Part shown: positions 6,874-33,932 of the stretch, piece after piece
How positions within the stretch are numbered: position 1 is the first letter of the stretch
How the letters are laid out: each line of letters starts with the position of its first letter
NCBI GenBank assembly: GCA_944323635.1
Contig: CALUTH010000003.1
Span: 1 to 34,246, forward strand
DNA length: 34,246 nt
Reading direction: 5' to 3'
Source of the DNA: Candidatus Gastranaerophilales bacterium
GTDB taxonomy: Bacteria > Cyanobacteriota > Vampirovibrionia > Gastranaerophilales > Gastranaerophilaceae
Translations under genes and position numbers: made by a program
The notes under the pieces: model-generated
Seen by the model: the letters and a program-made list of their open reading frames with translations, nothing else
The model's database searches: none
What the model was told of the DNA's origin: nothing

Positions 6874-7067
6874 ATACAAAAGGGGTAAAAGGGAAAGAAA
6901 TACAGAGTATACTTGCTTCCAAAGGAATATAATCTCCATAATAACACTTTAGTAAATATTGAATATATAATTATAGTAACAATTACCTAAAAAATATAAA
7001 TTTTTAAAATTCAACAATACCAAAGGTTTCGCCATAATTAGTTTTCTTTTTAAACATTTTTGTAAAG

Positions 7068-7080
7068 TTTTGTAACAAAA
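7068..7080. promoter_or_regulatory. Palindrome TTTTGTAACAAAA upstream of the gene at 7163
   Basis: A perfect 6+1+6 palindrome lies 83 bases before the start of the Gln-rich gene. Closely similar palindromes occur at 11897-11907 and 27399-27407, also 58-78 bases upstream of genes. A shared operator is possible. Confidence 0.3.
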
Positions 7081-10898: not shown

Positions 10899-11837
10899 TT
10901 ACTCGCCTCTTATATAGTCCCTAAAATGCTGAAGTTCTCTTTTATTTCTCAATTTTTCCAGCGCAGCTGTTTCAAGCTGCCTTATCCGTTCCTTAGAAAA
11001 TCCAAGGTTTTTACCTATCTGCTCTAATGTTTTATAATCCTCATTATTTATCCCGAACCGGCAGGATAAAATTTCTTTTTCTCTATCAGTTAAATACCTC
11101 ATCAACTCCTCCATCCCCTCAGAGAGCATCTTATCTGCCGTTATTTTGTCAGGAGAACGATAAGATGTATCTTCTATATAATCCTCAACAGACAAATCCT
11201 CAGTTATTGGTGTATCAAGGCTTATAGGTTCCTTATTCAACGCGGAATTAATAAGTTTTAATTTTTTTCGGTCAAACCCTGTTAATTCCATCATCTCCTC
11301 ATCGCTCGGCTCTCGCCCGTGAATAAAAGTAAATTTTGAAAATGCCCTCTTATACTTCCGCATTTTATCCTGCATGTGAACAGGAATTCTAATCAGCTTT
11401 GAGGTATTAGAGATTGCTCTTATCATCGTCTGCTTTACCCACCAGGTTGCGTAAGTTGAGAATTTATATCCTTTTCTGTAATCATATTTCTCAGCCGCAC
11501 GCATTAAACCCAACCCGCCTTCCTGAACTAAATCCATAAAAAGGACGCCGTGCCCTGTGTATTTTTTTGCAATACTAACAACCAGACGCAAGTTTGCATT
11601 AACAAGTTTTCTCTTTGCAATTTCTTTTTCTTTGCCCCTGCCCTCGCGAATTGTTTTTCCAAGCAGCAATTCTTCCTCTGATGTAAGCATCTTTGTTCTG
11701 CCAACATCTTTAAGATACATTTGCAGCAAGTCATCCGAATCCATCACAGAACTAAAAGTTTTAACATCTTCAGTTTCTGTACCAAATTCCATATCAAAAA
11801 TATACTCATCCTTTTCTCTCTTCATAGGAAATCCCAT
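10899..11837 (-). CDS. RNA polymerase sigma-70 family factor, group 2-like
   Basis: The 312-aa product has sigma region 1.2 (about 35-62, DLLQMYLKDVGRTKML), region 2 with the core-binding and -10-melting segments (LRLVVSIAKKYTGHG, then YKFSTYATWWVKQTMIRAI at 124-142), region 3 and region 4 with a helix-turn-helix (LEQIGKNLGFSKERIRQLE, 271-289). Region 1.1 is absent and the protein is short, like the alternative group 2 sigmas of cyanobacteria. Regions 2.4 and 4.2 are close to primary-sigma sequences, so it should read ordinary -35/-10 promoters. It is not a sigma-28 type. GGAGGATAG precedes the ATG at 11837. It is divergent from the GH77-like gene across a 128-base gap. It might still be the main sigma of a reduced genome. 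Confidence 0.92.
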   Translation of the reverse strand: MGFPMKREKDEYIFDMEFGTETEDVKTFSSVMDSDDLLQMYLKDVGRTKMLTSEEELLLGKTIREGRGKEKEIAKRKLVNANLRLVVSIAKKYTGHGVLFMDLVQEGGLGLMRAAEKYDYRKGYKFSTYATWWVKQTMIRAISNTSKLIRIPVHMQDKMRKYKRAFSKFTFIHGREPSDEEMMELTGFDRKKLKLINSALNKEPISLDTPITEDLSVEDYIEDTSYRSPDKITADKMLSEGMEELMRYLTDREKEILSCRFGINNEDYKTLEQIGKNLGFSKERIRQLETAALEKLRNKRELQHFRDYIRGE

Positions 11838-11965: not shown

Positions 11966-14005
11966 ATGCGCGTAAACAATATTTCAAATATATCCTTCCA
12001 GCGGAGACTAAACAGACGCGAAGATAAGAAGGTAAACAAACTACATCCTCAAGTACAAAAACTGCTTGAACACAACGGGGATAATATTTTAATAGTCCAT
12101 GACCCTTGTCTGCCGGCAGCAAAAAACAAAGACACGGGCATCGGATATTTGTTCAGCAAAGAGGGGCTCAAATACCTTAAGGATATGAAAACCCTGCTCG
12201 GTATAACAGCCGTAGAGGTACATCCGCAGGGAGAGTACTATATAGGCGGCAGCAGACGCTTTTGCTGCCCGTACTCTGCTACGGCGCTTTCTCTCGGCTC
12301 TCATCTGATCCCGCCCGCAGAACTTACAAAATCCGAATACGGCAAACTTCTTACCGCTGATGAAGTTCAATCAATAATCAGCAGCAATACTGCATCAAAC
12401 AAAGATACAATCCTTAATTGGGAAAACATACTTCCGTCCGACTCTCAAAATGAAAAAATACTAAAAAAAGCGCACGAACGTTTTAAATCACTGCCTGATA
12501 ATGCCGGTATAAAACAGGATTACAAAAGCTTTATTGCATCAAATAATGACTGGCTAGAGCCGATAAGTATATACGAAGAATTACTAAAAAAATATCAAAA
12601 GGCCCTAAAACACTGGAATATACTTGACCAAAACCTGTACAATCCGGATTATTCAAACCCGCAAAAAGAAACACGGCTGAAAGAAATCCTGACCCAAAAT
12701 GCAGATGATATTGATTTTTACAAATTCAAAGAATATCTGGCAGACAAATTCTTAACCAAATCAAAAGAGGCGCTAAACAATATAGGGTTGAGATTGACAG
12801 GCGATCAGTTAATAGGTTTTAGCGAGGCAGAAGTTTTTGCATATCCAAAAGCCTTTATGAAAGGTAAGACTATTGGCTGGGATTTACCTGCGCTTGACTA
12901 TGATACAATACTTAACCCCGATTCATCTGCCGCCAAGCTGCTAAAACGAAAAACAGAACTTTTTGCAAAACGTTACGACGGGTCAATACGGTTTGATGTT
13001 GCCTGGGCATACTTACAGCCGGCAATAGAAGACACGAAAACCCAAGATATTGAGCACAGACAGCTTAATACAGACGCACTGTTAAAGATGATTGAAGACA
13101 CCGTAAAAAAAGTAAGGGGCGACAAATTTAATCCAAACCACCTGCTCTATGAATTTGAAGCCGATTCGAAAGACTTTCCGCTTGACAGTACAAACTGGAG
13201 ATTTGTAAATAACAGAGTAAAAGTATACTCAATGCAATACATGGATAGCACATGGGGATACACCGAGGGCTTTGAAAGAGGTCAGAAGTTCGCGCCGGAA
13301 ACTGTAATAGGCGGACTCGGAAATCAGGATGTACTTCCGCTCAAAAGGTTTGTGCAGTTTAAAGATACTGATATTAGCAAATTATCCAAAGAAGAAAGTA
13401 TTAATCTGTTATGGGAAACCTTCGGCGGGGATAAAAACCAATTATATAAAGAAAAAAACTACAATTTTTATGTAGACAGATACAAAGAAATCTGTATAAA
13501 AAGAAAAGCACAGATTGAAATCTTATCTAAAAAATACAACATTCCGGCAGAAACTTTATATTCAAACCCTGCAGAACTTGCAAAAGCAAAGGCGGCAGAA
13601 GCTTTTGCCGGAAAAAATACGATGTTCTATTTTATGGATGTTTTAGGTCGGGCTCAGGTTTTCGATGCTGACAGGCTAAACAGTTACGAAAACTACAGGT
13701 ACAGAATTACGCCCAACTATATGGACGAGTACACAAAAGCGCTGGCTGACGGTTTTGGAATAAATATGTTTGATATTTATGAAAAACGGTTTAAACAAAC
13801 GGGGCTTGATAAAAAATACCCTCAAATATTTAAACAGATACAAAAATTTAAAGAAATAATAATGGAACCGGAGGTTCAAAAGAAATCCCCCGTAAAAAAA
13901 TATGTACTTATTGCGGGCGGGGTATTATTAATCGCAGGGTTAGGAATAGCGGCTTTCATAAGCAATAAAAAACAGCCGGTAAAAAACAAACCGGCTGAAA
14001 TCTGA
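11966..14005 (+). CDS. GH77 (4-alpha-glucanotransferase)-like protein with C-terminal membrane anchor
   Basis: The 679-aa product follows the order of GH77 amylomaltase (MalQ) motifs in diverged form: GIGYLFSKEGLKYLK (58-72), VEVHPQGE...CPYSATALSLGSHLI (83-115), GLRLTGDQLIGF (274-285), WDLPALDYD (305-313), RFDVAWAYLQP with Asp344 in the nucleophile position (342-352), YEFEAD (395-400) in the acid/base region, and GNQD (452-455) where MalQ has THDN. GH77 enzymes move alpha-1,4-glucan segments between chains in glycogen/maltodextrin metabolism. Two parts are unusual: an N-terminal extension with NISFQRR and a C-terminal membrane helix (646-666) after a Pro/Lys-rich linker. AGGAG precedes the ATG. 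Activity is uncertain given the altered motifs. Confidence 0.7.
   Translation: MRVNNISNISFQRRLNRREDKKVNKLHPQVQKLLEHNGDNILIVHDPCLPAAKNKDTGIGYLFSKEGLKYLKDMKTLLGITAVEVHPQGEYYIGGSRRFCCPYSATALSLGSHLIPPAELTKSEYGKLLTADEVQSIISSNTASNKDTILNWENILPSDSQNEKILKKAHERFKSLPDNAGIKQDYKSFIASNNDWLEPISIYEELLKKYQKALKHWNILDQNLYNPDYSNPQKETRLKEILTQNADDIDFYKFKEYLADKFLTKSKEALNNIGLRLTGDQLIGFSEAEVFAYPKAFMKGKTIGWDLPALDYDTILNPDSSAAKLLKRKTELFAKRYDGSIRFDVAWAYLQPAIEDTKTQDIEHRQLNTDALLKMIEDTVKKVRGDKFNPNHLLYEFEADSKDFPLDSTNWRFVNNRVKVYSMQYMDSTWGYTEGFERGQKFAPETVIGGLGNQDVLPLKRFVQFKDTDISKLSKEESINLLWETFGGDKNQLYKEKNYNFYVDRYKEICIKRKAQIEILSKKYNIPAETLYSNPAELAKAKAAEAFAGKNTMFYFMDVLGRAQVFDADRLNSYENYRYRITPNYMDEYTKALADGFGINMFDIYEKRFKQTGLDKKYPQIFKQIQKFKEIIMEPEVQKKSPVKKYVLIAGGVLLIAGLGIAAFISNKKQPVKNKPAEI
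13967..13997 (-). terminator. Terminator of the ompH unit, inside the 3' end of the GH77-like gene
   Basis: CAGCCGGT (13973-13980) pairs with ACCGGCTG (13990-13997). Read on the minus strand the stem is followed by six T residues (13967-13972). It lies 20 bases beyond the ompH stop but within the last codons of the convergent gene, so those codons carry two roles. Confidence 0.7.
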
Positions 14006-21857: not shown

Positions 21858-24800
21858 TTATGCATCTGTACCGGATCCGCCTTGTGCTTGTATAGCTTCA
21901 AGAAGATCTTTCATCAGCACATTTAATTGCTGCATTTGGTCATTAACCTCGCCTGTAGTAGCATTACCGGCTCTTACAATTTCTTGTAAAGACTCAAGCA
22001 TTGCTTCAATGTCGTCAGTATTAATAACTATGTCCTGATTACCCATACCTTGCATTTGTTCAACGATAGTTGCAGTATTATTAATCAAAGTTTGGATAAG
22101 GTTATTTGTTGTCGTCAAATCAGAACTATTACCGCGAATAGCATTTATGATATCCTGAGTATTTTGAGTATTAACATCATTGATGTCAATACCTAAATCA
22201 TCTAACATTGCCTGCAATGTTGTTCCTGCATCAGCAAGAACTTGTTCAAGATCTTCACGGGTTAAACCGTTTGATTGATTAGCTACAAGATTATCAAGTC
22301 TTTCGATAATATCATCATACTTGTCATTTGCCGTTTGCAGATAGTTATTATTAGTATTCATTGATGTATTTAAATCACCAAGTAATGAACCCGCATTCTG
22401 TAAATCACTATAGATATTAGAAAGATTATCTAATATATCAGCACTGTTTGTTCTGTACAGTGATAAGAATGTACTAAACTCATCAGCCATACTAACAACT
22501 TCACCATACATATCTACTACGGTTTGATAAAGTTGATCTAATTTATCGTTTGCCTGTTGTAATTGATCATTGATATTTGCATTACCAGCATTATATGCAT
22601 CAATAAGTTGTTGCAATAAAACTTGTAATTCTGTATTATCCGGAATTGTCGGAGCTATTGCTGACAATTGGTTAATAATTGTTTGGATTAAATTGTTTGT
22701 TGTTGTTAAATCAATTGCGCTGGCTCTTATAGCAGCAATTAATTCGCTTACTTTAGCGTCAGCGTAATCTTGCACTTCTAAACCTAATGCCGTAAGCATA
22801 TTTTGAAGAGCTTCAAGGTTGGATGAACTTTGATTTGCAAGGAGTTCCTGCAGCTCTTCGTAAGTCAAGTCATCACCTTGATTTTGAATAATTTGTTCAA
22901 GACTGTTAGCAATATTATCTGCAGATGTTTGTAAATTATCAAGTTTTGATAACATTTGATCACCATTTGTCTTAATATCGTTTACAGTTCCTGCAATATC
23001 ACCTACCTGATTTTTAATATCTTCTAACGCTTGATAGAACATATCAGAATTAGTCTTATAATCATTGTAGAATGAATTAAAGCTGTCTAATCCTTCTTGA
23101 ACTTTGGCAAGAATATCTTTCAATGTTCCGTCAATACTTGCAAGGTAATCTTTAATTTCATCAAGTTTTACATTGATTTCTTCTTGCGAAGTATTACCCT
23201 GATCAATCATTGCATTTAATTCTTCAACAAGACTTAATAATCTATCCATTTGAGAATTGCTCAATGAAGTATTTAAGTCAATTGATGAAAGAAGATTAAT
23301 GATTGTATCCATTGTTTCTTCATTACCTTCCAAAGCACCCATTATTGATTGGAGCGCCTCAATGATTTGAGCAGTAGCATTATTTGTATTATCATTGATA
23401 GTTATACCAAGATTTTCAATCATTTCTTGAAGTTTTGCAGCCATTTCAGCATCAAGTCTTTCAAGTTCTGCGATTAACTCGGAGAAGTTCAAATCTCCTA
23501 ACTGATCATTTGCCTGTTGTAAAAGTTCAATAATTTGATTTGCTTGTTGTACTAATGCATCAGTATTTTCTTTATTTGCATTTTGTACACTAATCATTTC
23601 TTGTAAGTATGTATTTTGTTGTTCAGCATTTTGTATAAGCTGTTCAAAATAACTTGCATATTGAGATTGAGCTTGATCATTTTGTTCAATTATCACATTA
23701 ATCTTATCTAATGCTTCTGATAATTTTCCGCTTATTTCTGTTAGCGTTGAATCTATATTTGCAAGCAAGTCTTTAATTTCATCAAGTTTTGCACTGATTT
23801 CAATTTGAGTAGTATTGTCATCACCTGCAAGTTGTTTTAATTCATTTACAAGAGAAATCAATTCTGACATTTGACTTGCATTTAATGCAGTATTAATATC
23901 AATATTATTCAGTTTTTCAAGGATTTCAGTCATTGAAGTTTGACTATCGCTTATTGCACCTCTTAATGCTTCAAGCTGTTCAATAATCGCAGCAACAGCA
24001 TCATCGGTACTATTATCAATTACAAGACCGAGATTTTCAGCCGCATCTTTAATTGTTTGAACAACTTCTGCATTATTAGCATTTAATACTTCATAAAGTT
24101 CATCTAAGCTGATTTCACCAACATTTTCTTTAATATTATTAAGTACATTGATTGCTTCTTCAGCTCTTATATCTAACTTAGCAAGTAATTGAGCCTGTGC
24201 TTCATTAGACTGTACTAACTTTTCAAGATATTTGTTTTGTTGGTTAGCATTTTCCAATAATAATGCAAAGTTATCAGCATTAGCCTGGTTACCAGCCTTA
24301 ATATTATTGTTAATATCTTGTACTTCTGCAAAGATGTCATTCAATTGAGAACTCATACCTTGTAATGTTTCATTAATAGATCCAAGTAATTCAGCAATTT
24401 GAGCCAATGCCTCAGATACTGTCAACTTACCATCCTCTAATGATACATATATTTGATGTATTTCTTCTAATTGCAGTTTATCTAATGTATTACCTTCTAT
24501 CAATGCATTATACATGAGTTCCATCATTTTTTCAGAAGTTATTTGACCTTCTTTATACTGATCTAAGAACTCTTGTAAAATCTCTTTTACTTCGCCTGTT
24601 TGTGAACCTATTGTTGATTCCATAGATTCAACAATAACTTTAATATCATTAATTGCATTAATGATTTGTTCATTTCTTTCATTTGCAGACAATTCACTAT
24701 TTTCATAAATTTCTGTAATTGTATTGAGAAGTTCATCATTGTTCACATCAAGAATGGAACCTAATCCATCAATACTATCAATAATTGCGGTATTTCCTTC

Positions 24801-25505
24801 TTGAATATCTGCCCAAATAAGTTCAAGAACCGCAATTACAGACTCATTGCCATTTTCAATTGCTGCTTGTATATTTTCCATATAAGAAATAATGCCGTCA
24901 CCATACTGACTGATTAAAGCATTATTTTCTTCCAGCGCAGCAAGAATATCGTTCATTAAATCAAGCCCTTGTTGAGCAATAGCAAGGCTTTCTTCTGTAT
25001 TTGTATCAATACTTGCAAGAAGCTCTCTGTATATTTCCATCATTGCATTAACAGTATCATAATAAACTTTATCCTGATCATTGCCGGCTTGAACTAACTG
25101 AGTTAAATAATCAATTGCATTTAAAATTTGACCCTGAAACTCTGTATTCTGTTCCATGTATTGCTTCCAGAGCTCGATCATTTGTTTTAAAAGTTCCTCT
25201 GATTCAGATTTTTCAGTAACATTTAAAGTCCAGTTTTCAGTAATTTCTGTTTTTTCACAGCTGGTAAGTGCTGCAGCACCCGGCACTAATAAAATAGCCG
25301 CAGGCGCCATTTTCGGCAGTGTTTTAACAACTTTCAAACTTGCTTGTGCATAATTACCCAATCCTTTTAAACCATTGAGACCTGTAAATGCAGGTTCCTG
25401 GGGTAATTCTTTTTTCTCAGCTTCAGGCTGAGGATTTTCCTGGTAATTAAGAATGTTCTTATTGAACAACTTTTTCAAACCAAGAGTTTGATTCGTAATG
25501 TCCAT
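21858..25505 (-). CDS. Giant repetitive helical protein with displaced lipobox (1215 aa)
   Basis: I do not recognise a named family. After a 67-residue polar leader containing EPAFTGLNG (37-45) comes a hydrophobic segment (68-82) ending in LTSC, which fits a lipoprotein signal with Cys83. The rest is almost wholly helical and rich in Asn, Gln, Glu, Leu and Ile. From about 463 there is a repeat of roughly 205 residues: 463-668, 669-875, 877-1078 and a partial 1079-1215. Repeats share a start like LTxEELxELL, a (N/A)LGL-type turn, a TTTNNLIQTxIN or SQMxxLxSLV block and a LDEIKDxLAxID block. Such proteins often form long fibres or tethers. The ATG has AAGGAG upstream. It lies downstream of ctpA on the same strand. 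Surface attachment is inference. Confidence 0.82.
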   Translation of the reverse strand: MDITNQTLGLKKLFNKNILNYQENPQPEAEKKELPQEPAFTGLNGLKGLGNYAQASLKVVKTLPKMAPAAILLVPGAAALTSCEKTEITENWTLNVTEKSESEELLKQMIELWKQYMEQNTEFQGQILNAIDYLTQLVQAGNDQDKVYYDTVNAMMEIYRELLASIDTNTEESLAIAQQGLDLMNDILAALEENNALISQYGDGIISYMENIQAAIENGNESVIAVLELIWADIQEGNTAIIDSIDGLGSILDVNNDELLNTITEIYENSELSANERNEQIINAINDIKVIVESMESTIGSQTGEVKEILQEFLDQYKEGQITSEKMMELMYNALIEGNTLDKLQLEEIHQIYVSLEDGKLTVSEALAQIAELLGSINETLQGMSSQLNDIFAEVQDINNNIKAGNQANADNFALLLENANQQNKYLEKLVQSNEAQAQLLAKLDIRAEEAINVLNNIKENVGEISLDELYEVLNANNAEVVQTIKDAAENLGLVIDNSTDDAVAAIIEQLEALRGAISDSQTSMTEILEKLNNIDINTALNASQMSELISLVNELKQLAGDDNTTQIEISAKLDEIKDLLANIDSTLTEISGKLSEALDKINVIIEQNDQAQSQYASYFEQLIQNAEQQNTYLQEMISVQNANKENTDALVQQANQIIELLQQANDQLGDLNFSELIAELERLDAEMAAKLQEMIENLGITINDNTNNATAQIIEALQSIMGALEGNEETMDTIINLLSSIDLNTSLSNSQMDRLLSLVEELNAMIDQGNTSQEEINVKLDEIKDYLASIDGTLKDILAKVQEGLDSFNSFYNDYKTNSDMFYQALEDIKNQVGDIAGTVNDIKTNGDQMLSKLDNLQTSADNIANSLEQIIQNQGDDLTYEELQELLANQSSSNLEALQNMLTALGLEVQDYADAKVSELIAAIRASAIDLTTTNNLIQTIINQLSAIAPTIPDNTELQVLLQQLIDAYNAGNANINDQLQQANDKLDQLYQTVVDMYGEVVSMADEFSTFLSLYRTNSADILDNLSNIYSDLQNAGSLLGDLNTSMNTNNNYLQTANDKYDDIIERLDNLVANQSNGLTREDLEQVLADAGTTLQAMLDDLGIDINDVNTQNTQDIINAIRGNSSDLTTTNNLIQTLINNTATIVEQMQGMGNQDIVINTDDIEAMLESLQEIVRAGNATTGEVNDQMQQLNVLMKDLLEAIQAQGGSGTDA

Positions 25506-25610
25506 ATCTTATTTACTCCTTTCAAGTAATTATTATTTTTCTGGTTACTATCGCTTGAACAAAGGAGAAGATTTTTTTTTGCTATTATTTGACAAAAAAT
25601 TTACAAATTG

Positions 25611-26867
25611 TTACATATTATTAGATATACGTACTACATCAACATCATCTATCATCTTATGTAAAATATTCTTAGCCGCATTCAATTGTTTATCCTTTGA
25701 CTCATCGTTTGAAAATTTACCGGGGTCTACTTTTATATGCGGCTCAATGCCTTTATTATTTATATCATGATTTTTAGGCGTCAAATATTTAGCAATAGTC
25801 AAGTTAATTCCTGTTTCATTTGGTAAAGGTATAACACTTTGAACCATCCCTTTGCCAAATGACTTATGCCCGATTATTGTTGCTCGATTATAATCTTTCA
25901 TTGCACCCGAAAATATCTCGCTCGCGGAAGCACTTGCCTCGTTTATTAAAATCACTACAGGCTTATGAATTTTCTTCCCTGAAGAACTTGCCGCAAATAC
26001 GTTTTTCTTTCCATCTCGTGTAACAACACTTACTATTGTACCGGAATCTATAAAAGCTTCCGACAAATGAACAGCATTATCCAGAAGTCCGCCTGTATTC
26101 CATCTTAAATCAATTATTAACCCTTTACAGTCTTTTGTTTTTTCAAGCGCCGAATCTAGTTCATTTTTCATGTCAGAACTCAAAAAGCTGCTCAAATTAA
26201 TATAACCAATATCCCCGTAGACTTTTGTTTCAATCGTCTTAATTTTTATTTCTTCACGAGTCAATTCTTTTGTAAAAGTACGACCGCCCCGAAGGAAAGT
26301 AAGCACAACCTTTGTATCTTTTGCACCACGTATTAAATCTGCAACCTGATCTATCTTTTTCCCGTTGCATTCAACATTTCCAACTTTAAGTATAATGTCA
26401 TCAGGTTTTAGACCTGCCCTTTGAGCCGGCGTTTCCGGCACGACACTAAATACAGTTATTTTACCCGAATCATTATATATATTAACACCAATTCCATAAA
26501 TTTTTGATTTAATTGAAGTATTTAAATTCTTAAATTCTTCTTTAGTCATAAAATGGGTATATGGTTCATTAAGACTAGCAATCATTGTATCAATCGCAAC
26601 TTTCATATCATCATCTGTCTTAATTTTCCCTTTATAACGCTTAGTCCACTTCTTCCAATCTTGATGGTTTAAATCAGCTTCAATATATTGTTTTTCTATT
26701 AGTCCGGCAACCACATCAAATAATTTTTGTGGTTCCATGCTTTCTTTGTTAACTATAAGTCTATTATTTTTTATATCAACCGTTCTGGTATACGTATCAT
26801 AAAATACCTTATTAAGAGCTAATAGACAAAATAAAATTGCTATAATTGTAATAAGCTTTCTCATCAT
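25611..26867 (-). CDS. Carboxy-terminal processing protease (S41 family, CtpA-like)
   Basis: The 418-aa product has a membrane or signal helix (about 6-24), an N-terminal helical part, a PDZ domain (about 120-205, with GIGVNI, AGLKPDDIILKV) and an S41 protease domain. Catalytic Ser314 is in NEASASASEI and Lys339 in FGKGMVQS; the 25-residue spacing matches the known Ser/Lys dyad of plant D1 protease. Such enzymes trim C-termini of periplasmic or envelope proteins. I chose the ATG at 26867 because a TATAAT lies exactly six bases upstream and the TTG at 26873 would be within the promoter. No ribosome binding site is present. The 1215-aa gene lies 105 bases downstream on the same strand. Confidence 0.93.
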   Translation of the reverse strand: MMRKLITIIAILFCLLALNKVFYDTYTRTVDIKNNRLIVNKESMEPQKLFDVVAGLIEKQYIEADLNHQDWKKWTKRYKGKIKTDDDMKVAIDTMIASLNEPYTHFMTKEEFKNLNTSIKSKIYGIGVNIYNDSGKITVFSVVPETPAQRAGLKPDDIILKVGNVECNGKKIDQVADLIRGAKDTKVVLTFLRGGRTFTKELTREEIKIKTIETKVYGDIGYINLSSFLSSDMKNELDSALEKTKDCKGLIIDLRWNTGGLLDNAVHLSEAFIDSGTIVSVVTRDGKKNVFAASSSGKKIHKPVVILINEASASASEIFSGAMKDYNRATIIGHKSFGKGMVQSVIPLPNETGINLTIAKYLTPKNHDINNKGIEPHIKVDPGKFSNDESKDKQLNAAKNILHKMIDDVDVVRISNNM

Positions 26868-26873
26868 AACCAA

Positions 26874-26903
26874 ATTATAGCAAGAAAAAATCGTTTATAT
26901 CAA
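26874..26903 (-). promoter_or_regulatory. Sigma-70 promoter of ctpA giving a leaderless mRNA
   Basis: On the minus strand TTGATA (26898-26903), an 18-base spacer and an extended -10 TGCTATAAT (TATAAT at 26874-26879) are followed by six bases and the ATG at 26867. The expected transcription start coincides with the start codon. Confidence 0.7.
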
Positions 26904-26949: not shown

Positions 26950-27321
26950 TTAAGCAGCAAAAATATTTTTACTTTCATCAAGGGTAAAATCAAATAAATC
27001 TTGTTTCTCGGCAGCTGCATCAGGTATATCTATAAGCGCATCTTTAGTAAAAGATTTAATAGCAGCTTTATTGTTTAAAAAATTCAATGTTTGCTGCAAA
27101 TTATTATTAGTAAATGCTCTCGACGAAATATTGCAAATATAAGTCTCAGCCGGAATATATGTTTTGGTTGTATAATCCTCATACTGAGGCATTACACGAT
27201 CTACACTGCGCTCTTTTTTGTCTGCATTCTCAAATATTTCCTTTGTAAGCCTACGTAAAGTTTCGCGGTTTCTTTGTCCTGACGAATGAGTATTATTTCT
27301 GATTGAAAAATCTGCGACCAT
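26950..27321 (-). CDS. Orphan 123-aa protein behind a sigma-28 promoter
   Basis: I do not recognise the family. The 123-aa product is polar with no signal peptide or membrane helix. It has a basic N-terminal part (5-40, RNRETLRRLTKEIFENADKK), a Tyr/Thr-rich middle, a helical part (75-110) and an acidic tail ending NIFAA. A perfect sigma-28 type promoter (27358-27384) lies directly upstream on the same strand, so it is probably a late flagellar or motility-linked gene. AGGAAAAGGG precedes the ATG. It is small and acidic-tailed, but I do not see an FlgM anti-sigma motif, so that role is only a possibility. It is flanked by the dnaK terminator upstream and ctpA downstream. Confidence 0.75.
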   Translation of the reverse strand: MVADFSIRNNTHSSGQRNRETLRRLTKEIFENADKKERSVDRVMPQYEDYTTKTYIPAETYICNISSRAFTNNNLQQTLNFLNNKAAIKSFTKDALIDIPDAAAEKQDLFDFTLDESKNIFAA

Positions 27322-27357
27322 AATTATATCCCTTTTCCTTTTTCCCTGGTAATATAG

Positions 27358-27384
27358 TTATCGGCACATTTTTTCAAAACTTTA
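27358..27384 (-). promoter_or_regulatory. Perfect sigma-28 (FliA/SigD) consensus promoter
   Basis: On the minus strand the sequence reads TAAAGTTT (27377-27384), an 11-base spacer and GCCGATAA (27358-27365). This is identical to the enterobacterial FliA consensus TAAAGTTT-N11-GCCGATAA in all 16 positions and in spacing. The start would lie near 27350, about 30 bases before the ATG of the 123-aa gene. Confidence 0.85.
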
Positions 27385-27398
27385 ATTTTTGCTTGAAA

Positions 27399-27407
27399 TT
27401 GTTACAA
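27399..27407. promoter_or_regulatory. Palindrome TTGTTACAA upstream of the sigma-28 promoter
   Basis: A 4+1+4 palindrome 15 bases upstream of the sigma-28 -35 element. It resembles the sites at 7068-7080 and 11897-11907. Confidence 0.25.
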
Positions 27408-27427
27408 AAATTAACATTTAAAAAAGT

Positions 27428-27455
27428 AAAAAAGCCCATACAATGATGGGCTTTT
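27428..27455 (-). terminator. Intrinsic terminator of dnaK
   Basis: AAAAAGCCCAT (27428-27438) pairs with ATGGGCTTTTT (27445-27455), an 11-bp stem with a 6-base loop, 22 bases past the dnaK stop. T-runs exist on both strands but only the minus strand carries a gene into it. Confidence 0.9.
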
Positions 27456-27477
27456 TATCATTGAGAAAGGAACCTTG

Positions 27478-32198: not shown

Positions 32199-33932
32199 CT
32201 AACCGCTCAATAGCGAACTATAGTTCGCATTAAGTTGTGAAATAGTCGTTTCCATCGCCGCGAATTTTGCTTCTAGTCTTGCCTGATATGTATCAACAGA
32301 CTCTTGTTTTCTGGTTATTCTGTCCTGCATATTAGAAACTTGAGTACTCAGTGAAGATTCTTTTGTCGAGAAATACCCCCCGGAATACAGGACATTATCA
32401 ACGGTCGATTTAAGAGATTTAAATATACCGTTGGTACCAAGTAACAATTCTTTTACAGAATCACTATTTTCTGCAAGAGCTTCCGCTAATTCATCCGCAT
32501 CAAGAGTCAAGGAAACAGTATCACTTGCAAGAGCACTGCTTGCTTCTTCTGTACTAATACCTATTTGAGACAACAATGAAAAATCACCATCTGTTTGAAT
32601 AGCTGAATTCATCGTATTTCTTAAAGTTGTATAAATCGTATTTAAGGTTGTTTCTCCATGCAAATCACCGGATTGAGCAGTAGCCGTATCAATTTCTGAC
32701 ATTAATGAATTATAAGCATCAACAACTTCAGTAAGAGCCTCAGTTATTTTGGTAGTATCCTGTGCTATGGTTAATGTGGTATCCCCTGTTTCTTCCGTAT
32801 TAACAGACTTAAGGTTTAATGTTAAACCGGTAATACGTGATACATCAGCAGTAACAGTATTAGATGTAGAAGTAATGTCCGTACCATTAATATTGACAAT
32901 AGCATTTTGTCCTAATTCTTGCGCAGCCGTAACCAGCTTAGTAGAAGTAATGTTATTGCTACTATCACGCTCGGTAACAGTTAACCCCATAACATCAGTA
33001 AAATTACTGGTTCCTGCTTCTACATTAATATATGAAGAGCCTTCAACAGTAGACCTTAAGACAAGCTTACCATTCGCCGCATCCCAAGAAGCAAAGACAT
33101 TAGAATCTTCACTATTATTAATTTGTGAAATAATATTATCCAATGTTGTATTAGAGTCAATAGTAAATGTAGCATTTCCTATTGTAAATGTACCTTCTGT
33201 AATCTGAGAAGTAAAACCGGCATTTGCATCAGTTAACACGGTAGAACCGGTAACTTTATATACAGAAGAAGCAGACTGGTATACACCATCCTCATTCATT
33301 TCTAAGCCTAGTAAAGAAACAAAGTTTGAAGTATCAGTGTTTGCTCCGATTCTCAACTCTGAACCTGAATTGGAAGCCTCAATAGACAAAATGCCTGTAT
33401 CCGGATCAATAGAAAGAGTTGCACCTGCAGTGCTCAAACGTGATTGGAGATTGGCAACCGTATCATTTTCATCAATATTAATTTCAGATCTAACACCATC
33501 AACATATACAGTTAAGGTGCCTGCCTGAATACCCAAATCAGAAAGCCTCGTGTTACCATCAGCCACCTCACTTGCCGCATCAACTCCCTGAGCGGTTGTC
33601 ATTGTTGCAAGTTGTTTAACAGTTATATCATAGGTATCACGAATTGCATCTGTCGTAACAGTTGCAGTAAATACCGATTCATCACTTGAAGTAGCAGTAT
33701 TAGCTGCAAATATATCAGATGATGAACTGTACAAAGAATCTGTTAAAGCCTGAAGAGCAGTCTGAAAATTTGTAAATGAAGTCTTTAAATTAGAAAGAGT
33801 TGTCTGTGTTTGTTGTATAGCAGATAACTGATTTTGTAAAGACGTTACACCAAGTTGTTTCACAGAGACTAAAGCGCTAACCCACGAGTCTGTATCTAAC
33901 CCTGTTGCTAAACCACTGAATGAAATTGACAT
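32199..33932 (-). CDS. fliD: Flagellar hook-associated protein 2 (filament cap)
   Basis: FliD caps the flagellar filament and guides flagellin folding at the tip. The 577-aa sequence shows the N-terminal SISFSGLATGLDTDSWVSAL with a following heptad helix (FliD_N, about 1-105) and Ser/Thr/Asn-rich surface domains. The C-terminal FliD_C region includes VVDAYNSLMSEI, SQIGIS and the end coiled coil RITRKQESVDTYQARLEAKF. As usual for the family, it lacks Cys and has no signal peptide, being exported by the flagellar apparatus. AGGAAGGA precedes the ATG. It is monocistronic between a good sigma-70 promoter and a strong terminator; fliS and other flagellar genes are not adjacent in the window. Confidence 0.95.
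   Translation of the reverse strand: MSISFSGLATGLDTDSWVSALVSVKQLGVTSLQNQLSAIQQTQTTLSNLKTSFTNFQTALQALTDSLYSSSSDIFAANTATSSDESVFTATVTTDAIRDTYDITVKQLATMTTAQGVDAASEVADGNTRLSDLGIQAGTLTVYVDGVRSEINIDENDTVANLQSRLSTAGATLSIDPDTGILSIEASNSGSELRIGANTDTSNFVSLLGLEMNEDGVYQSASSVYKVTGSTVLTDANAGFTSQITEGTFTIGNATFTIDSNTTLDNIISQINNSEDSNVFASWDAANGKLVLRSTVEGSSYINVEAGTSNFTDVMGLTVTERDSSNNITSTKLVTAAQELGQNAIVNINGTDITSTSNTVTADVSRITGLTLNLKSVNTEETGDTTLTIAQDTTKITEALTEVVDAYNSLMSEIDTATAQSGDLHGETTLNTIYTTLRNTMNSAIQTDGDFSLLSQIGISTEEASSALASDTVSLTLDADELAEALAENSDSVKELLLGTNGIFKSLKSTVDNVLYSGGYFSTKESSLSTQVSNMQDRITRKQESVDTYQARLEAKFAAMETTISQLNANYSSLLSG

Follow-up and report, generated by a model that had tools for sequence, protein, structure and literature searches.

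A candidate composite HLR1 and sigma-28 promoter precedes an uncharacterised gene family that occurs independently of flagellin in Candidatus Gastranaerophilales

Why should a small orphan gene between dnaK and ctpA stand under a promoter of the flagellar sigma factor FliA (sigma-28)? The gene, P0001, encodes 123 amino acids and lies in a 34,246-nucleotide stretch of a Candidatus Gastranaerophilales contig, analysed whole and referred to here as the window. Gastranaerophilales are non-photosynthetic, dark-living gut relatives of cyanobacteria, to which they form a sister group. A preliminary description of the locus had reported an upstream match to the FliA consensus in every specified base and in spacing, which we confirm: TAAAGTTT-N11-GCCGATAA (27358–27384, minus strand; 16/16 bases) is the sole exact copy in the window and occurs in none of 100 dinucleotide shuffles. 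The distance from this sequence to the open reading frame (ATG at 27321) is 36 nt (Table 1).

Table 1. Features at the 123-aa gene, in window coordinates
Feature	Position	Strand	Basis
123-aa gene P0001, founder of an uncharacterised order-wide family	26950..27321	-	ORF, orthologues, profile matches, third-codon variation
Sigma-28 -35 element TAAAGTTT	27377..27384	-	Exact match, family conservation
Sigma-28 -10 element GCCGATAA	27358..27365	-	Exact match, 11 nt from -35, family conservation
Untranslated leader, purine-rich, GGGA/GGA repeats	27322..27357	-	Sequence; similar leaders in orthologues
HLR1-like element GTTACAAAAATTAACATT, candidate RpaB-type response-regulator site	27401..27418	+ (opposite strand to gene)	1 mismatch
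Terminator after dnaK, separating dnaK from the 123-aa gene	27429..27456	-	
ctpA sigma-70-type promoter TTGATA-18-TATAAT	26874..26903	-	Same sequence downstream of orthologues

The leader yielded no RNA fold, its last repeat acting as ribosome-binding site. Bounded by the terminator that closes dnaK and by a separate sigma-70-type promoter for ctpA, the 123-aa gene forms an independent unit, and the sigma-28 promoter is not needed by ctpA. Both neighbours are as first described; the accompanying remark that no flagellar gene is adjacent holds for these flanks, with the qualification that fliD (32199–33932) lies 4.9 kb off, itself without a sigma-28 site. Among eight window genes tested, only the 123-aa gene has a convincing sigma-28 site, the best scores elsewhere being 10–12/16 (shuffle p 0.13 to 0.97). 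A fliA/sigD-type sigma factor, whose absence had been named as grounds against the promoter assignment, is present: the genome encodes one FliA-family sigma (TIGR02479 above the curated cut-off; G000:C36:15267-15929), and exactly one FliA per genome is found in 129 of 146 relatives. The window also holds an RpoD-type sigma factor of 312 aa (10899–11837, minus strand), below the RpoD cut-offs and resembling an extra group-2 sigma. By its sequence, the region 5' of the 123-aa gene looks like a genuine FliA-type promoter.

Six orthologues within the genus (59–74% identity) all carry the same promoter, and third codon positions are the most variable, indicating that the 123-aa ORF is a real gene. 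The dnaK–gene–ctpA order is kept within the genus; neighbours differ in other genera. We built two profiles of the P0001 family: one of 11 sequences, with matches in 90 of 383 genomes of the taxonomic family, and one of 64 sequences, detecting members in 80 of 146 relatives (Ca. Gastranaerophilales genomes, identified by sequence), comprising 73/88 in the taxonomic family and 7 in other families of the order. By a strict pattern, the promoter lies 5' of 58 of 70 homologues; it is also seen 5' of homologues in flagellin-negative genera. Members are mostly 110 to 180 aa long and usually single copy. Common to most are an N-terminal helix (LR..AK.IL.NA or LKEVS.EIL.RA) and, in mid-sequence, another (..(T/S)(L/I).(F/Y)LN..AA); the carboxy terminus is often NIFAA, NIFA or NIFG. 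Both AlphaFold2 models, which are of low confidence, show three longer helices and flexible termini. With a GRAVY of -0.71 and no hydrophobic stretch, P0001 looks soluble. Pfam, NCBIfam and PDB sequences offer no fitting family; weak hits to Glyco_hydro_4C, Gag1-like and YggL (Pfam) and to V-ATPase subunit E and a cytochrome c555 fusion (PDB) lay below cut-off, in one or a few members or outside one of the two profiles, and were set aside as chance. A substrate/protease pairing of P0001 with CtpA was rejected, the neighbourhood being kept only in the genus and ctpA having its own promoter. The C-terminal ...NIFAA of P0001 (within 27100–26950) resembles non-polar C-terminal protease signals of the ClpXP or Tsp/CtpA type.

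What might such a protein do? That the protein is near-universal, usually single copy, small, flexible and helical, and that its gene has a FliA-type promoter, suggests an adaptor or a feedback regulator. It is possible, and we propose it with reserve, that the product is a cytoplasmic protein of this kind serving the regulon and not a structural part of a flagellum. A more specific version, in which P0001 is a FlgM-like anti-sigma-28 of independent origin, so that FliA makes its own inhibitor and is held in check, draws on several observations: FlgM itself (PF04316) was sought and not found in this genome, the protein is predicted to be small, flexible and helical, and in genomes that keep FliA the gene tends to occur once, with a FliA-type promoter. 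Against it, family members do not match PF04316, hhalign of the family with E. coli FlgM returns a probability of 0.1–0.2%, and in several genomes that do encode FliA no member is detected; we regard an anti-sigma role as unlikely.

A second element precedes the -35. TGTAA repeats 10 bp apart lie at a fixed distance 5' of it, and read on the other strand they match the cyanobacterial HLR1 consensus. RpaB is a light/redox response regulator of cyanobacteria. This OmpR-type regulator binds HLR1, (G/T)TTACA(T/A)(T/A)NN(G/T)TTACA(T/A)(T/A) (PMC9241938, PMC11633204). HLR1 is perfect in 21 of 58 homologue promoters (0.02 in shuffles) and within two mismatches in 57 (1.3 expected); these shuffles preserve single-base composition only and the genomes compared are related, so that more weight falls on the position, which is fixed across genera. 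The left edge of HLR1 lies 34–36 nt from TAAAG in 42 of these promoters and 45–46 nt in seven, with none at intermediate distances on that strand. A shift of exactly one helical turn points to a protein bound on a fixed face of the helix. Among 34 sigma-28 sites of this genome, 16 have a perfect HLR1 and 18 have the element at exactly 35 nt; it is missing from about a third. G081, a genome without flagellin, mostly has poor copies of the element at its sigma-28 sites, two of nine being within two mismatches.

The upstream TTACA repeat could instead be a contact for the RNA polymerase alpha subunit (a UP element) and no regulator site, as befits an AT-rich sequence that is directly upstream and helically phased. 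However, its TTACA half-sites are sequence-specific and spaced by 10 bp, unlike plain A/T tracts, and HLR1-like elements also stand 5' of genes without a sigma-28 core, two flagellins among them; we therefore doubt the UP-element reading and keep to a candidate regulator site. Elsewhere in the window there are four perfect HLR1 matches, against 0.38 expected with up to one mismatch. These repeats (496–513, plus; 544–561, minus; 7059–7076, minus; 25600–25617, plus) precede three genes without a sigma-28 site: the ORFs starting at 611 and 7163 (both plus) and a 1,215-aa ORF at 21858–25505 (minus). The putative HLR1 regulator seems to act outside the sigma-28 regulon too. The flagellins L093 and L098 have an HLR1-like element 115–130 nt 5' of the ATG and no sigma-28 core; their core promoter looks to be of another type. 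Homologues of RpaA, RpaB and NblS are reported from four Melainabacteria genomes, where they may have another function (PMC3787301). A motif search for response regulators among the loci examined here found none.

Is the gene flagellar? The preliminary description took its product for a probable late-flagellar one, and this does not hold. Scoring genomes with a flagellin N-terminal profile, we find P0001 family members in 31/39 of those with flagellin and 42/49 of those without it (taxonomic family, n = 88; p = 0.57). FliA is kept in 46 of the 49 flagellin-negative genomes, and in flagellin-negative genomes the P0001 family is still present with its sigma-28 promoter. A link to flagellin hinted at by the narrow profile disappeared with the broader one, a sensitivity artefact. 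At the flagellin genes, where the preliminary description suggested looking for the motif, five of six (L093, L094, L095, L097 and L098) lack a sigma-28 site, scoring at best 10–11/16 (shuffle p at least 0.48), and fliD lacks one too. For the sixth, the flagellin-domain protein L096, a 15/16 site lies 349 nt upstream; this locus (also L075; G000:C6:28183-28578) is a 1,361-codon ORF joining a flagellin N-terminal domain to glycine/asparagine/aspartate-rich repeats. The same description had found no match to a known flagellar family, and our profile tests agree: FlgM is unmatched, and FliS, FliT and FlgN are absent from the Pfam matches to E = 1 (11 members) or E = 0.1 (45 members). A late product of filament, motor or chaperone type would suit the perfect sigma-28 promoter, the encoded FliA and a flagellated genus with fliD nearby, but it is highly improbable for a family equally common without flagellin, whose promoter persists in flagellin-negative genomes and which matches no flagellar family, in a genome where most flagellins and fliD have no motif. 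By sequence comparison, the P0001 family and its promoter are independent of flagellin in Gastranaerophilales. Loss of flagella within the group was already known (PMC4040986; PMC3787301). Two flagellins from f9, another family of the class, have sigma-28-like sites (14/16; 0/200 shuffles) without HLR1, which suggests, short of proof, that sigma-28 control of flagellin is older and was lost in this lineage.

A whole-genome count of TAAAGTTT-N11-GCCGWWW gives 35 sites where the reversed control gives 1; a full 16/16 match is seen at just two sites. Counts per genome range from 9 to 35 within the genus and from 0 to 18 in other genera. That the match upstream of P0001 is a functionless chance or relic sequence, for which one could cite the AT-rich genome and the roughly 100 sites with up to three mismatches (about as many as in the reversed control), is as good as refuted, as the preliminary description anticipated, by the shuffles without an exact copy, the 35 sites against 1 at higher stringency and, decisively, conservation of the same position across dozens of divergent homologues.

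Several other genes accompany these sites. A further class of sigma-28 sites has, in place of HLR1, (TATGA)n repeats immediately 5' of the -35, with a GTGGTGGGGTGGGC-like tract after the repeats in this genome. Sites of this class lie at L032, L064, L067, L069 and L070 of this genome and at L214 of genome G030; EF-hand or 'NWGNVGDGFV' proteins are the products of several of these genes. Two tiny proteins, one of 51 aa (LRGAKKRR.MAIA) and one of 43–45 aa (WPG.YSF), are each encoded under a sigma-28 site (L062/L222/L209 and L079/L211); they are common to flagellated genomes and flagellin-negative G081, and neither has a Pfam match. A family beginning MG(M/L).(S/C)QARLL.L..R, with a C-terminal coiled coil and no convincing Pfam match, recurs under sigma-28 sites (L002, L063, L104, L215, L221 and L224), one copy in G030 lying immediately 3' of fliA. 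A GAF + HD protein (L068; G000:C21, ~12057–12082) has a sigma-28 site whose HLR1 match is displaced upstream by one turn, which may point to a link with second messengers; the G030 gene L220 resembles it and is likewise under such a site.

How, then, would the 123-aa gene be controlled? Five observations hold at the level of sequence: the promoter, its gene-linked conservation, the fixed and helically phased element 5' of it, a single FliA per genome and independence from flagellin. The gene probably belongs to the core of a FliA regulon that does without flagella, and its promoter is probably a composite of HLR1 and sigma-28 elements. Counting against this are eight flagellin-positive and seven flagellin-negative genomes with FliA-type backgrounds in which no family member is detected, and the sigma-28 sites where HLR1 is weak or missing. 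FliA holoenzyme would read the core, and the HLR1-like direct repeat would be bound by a response regulator of the OmpR type, for which the group's RpaB homologue is the likeliest candidate. Positioned on a fixed helix face just 5' of the core, the regulator would recruit or gate polymerase, as CRP does at aer and trg. The weakest step concerns the product, which may work as a cytoplasmic adaptor or feedback regulator, being small, soluble and helical with flexible ends and a conserved C-terminus. Somewhat more speculatively than the composite promoter itself, we would venture that RpaB co-activates a FliA regulon uncoupled from flagella, with the P0001 family as a near-universal member and possibly an independent FlgM-like feedback factor.

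In the literature searched, no paper joins Gastranaerophilales with FliA or any sigma factor, and the RpaB and HLR1 papers listed there make no mention of FliA. Sigma-28 without flagella (Chlamydia, PMC12282069) and activator-dependent sigma-28 promoters (E. coli) were known beforehand; the attached protein family is new. Two testable questions follow: the role of FliA in Gastranaerophilales without flagellin, and the job of RpaB and NblS homologues in non-photosynthetic bacteria, a point that PMC3787301 leaves open. If true, the proposal would give a regulon-wide case of activator-dependent sigma-28 promoters, against the two (aer and trg) of PMC2859248. The P0001 family provides a marker gene for reading the regulon across an order.

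Known systems share parts of this arrangement. Like the FlgM anti-sigma factor, P0001 is small, flexible and helical and its gene is predicted to be under sigma-28 control; unlike FlgM, to which it has no sequence or profile similarity, its distribution is independent of flagella. Enteric FliA promoters have an identical -35, spacing and -10, and the cognate sigma is encoded here too, yet the regulon is not flagellar, with five of six flagellins and fliD devoid of a site and a regulon gene that persists without flagellin. Chlamydia likewise keeps a FliA-family sigma without flagella for other genes, its regulon having just two targets, hctB and tsp (PMC12282069); the target genes differ here, where the tsp-type protease gene ctpA adjoins P0001 but has its own promoter. 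Similar in layout are the two activator-dependent sigma-28 promoters of E. coli, aer and trg, with CRP at -49.5 (PMC2859248): both arrangements place an activator site just upstream of a sigma-28 promoter at a fixed position, whereas the candidate site here is an HLR1-like direct repeat that accompanies much of the regulon and is kept in many genera, and activation is a prediction. The repeat itself is the same 18-bp direct repeat as in cyanobacteria, placed upstream as where RpaB activates (PMC9241938, PMC11633204), but in a setting with no photosynthesis genes and a sigma-28-type core, for which RpaB is the candidate binder.
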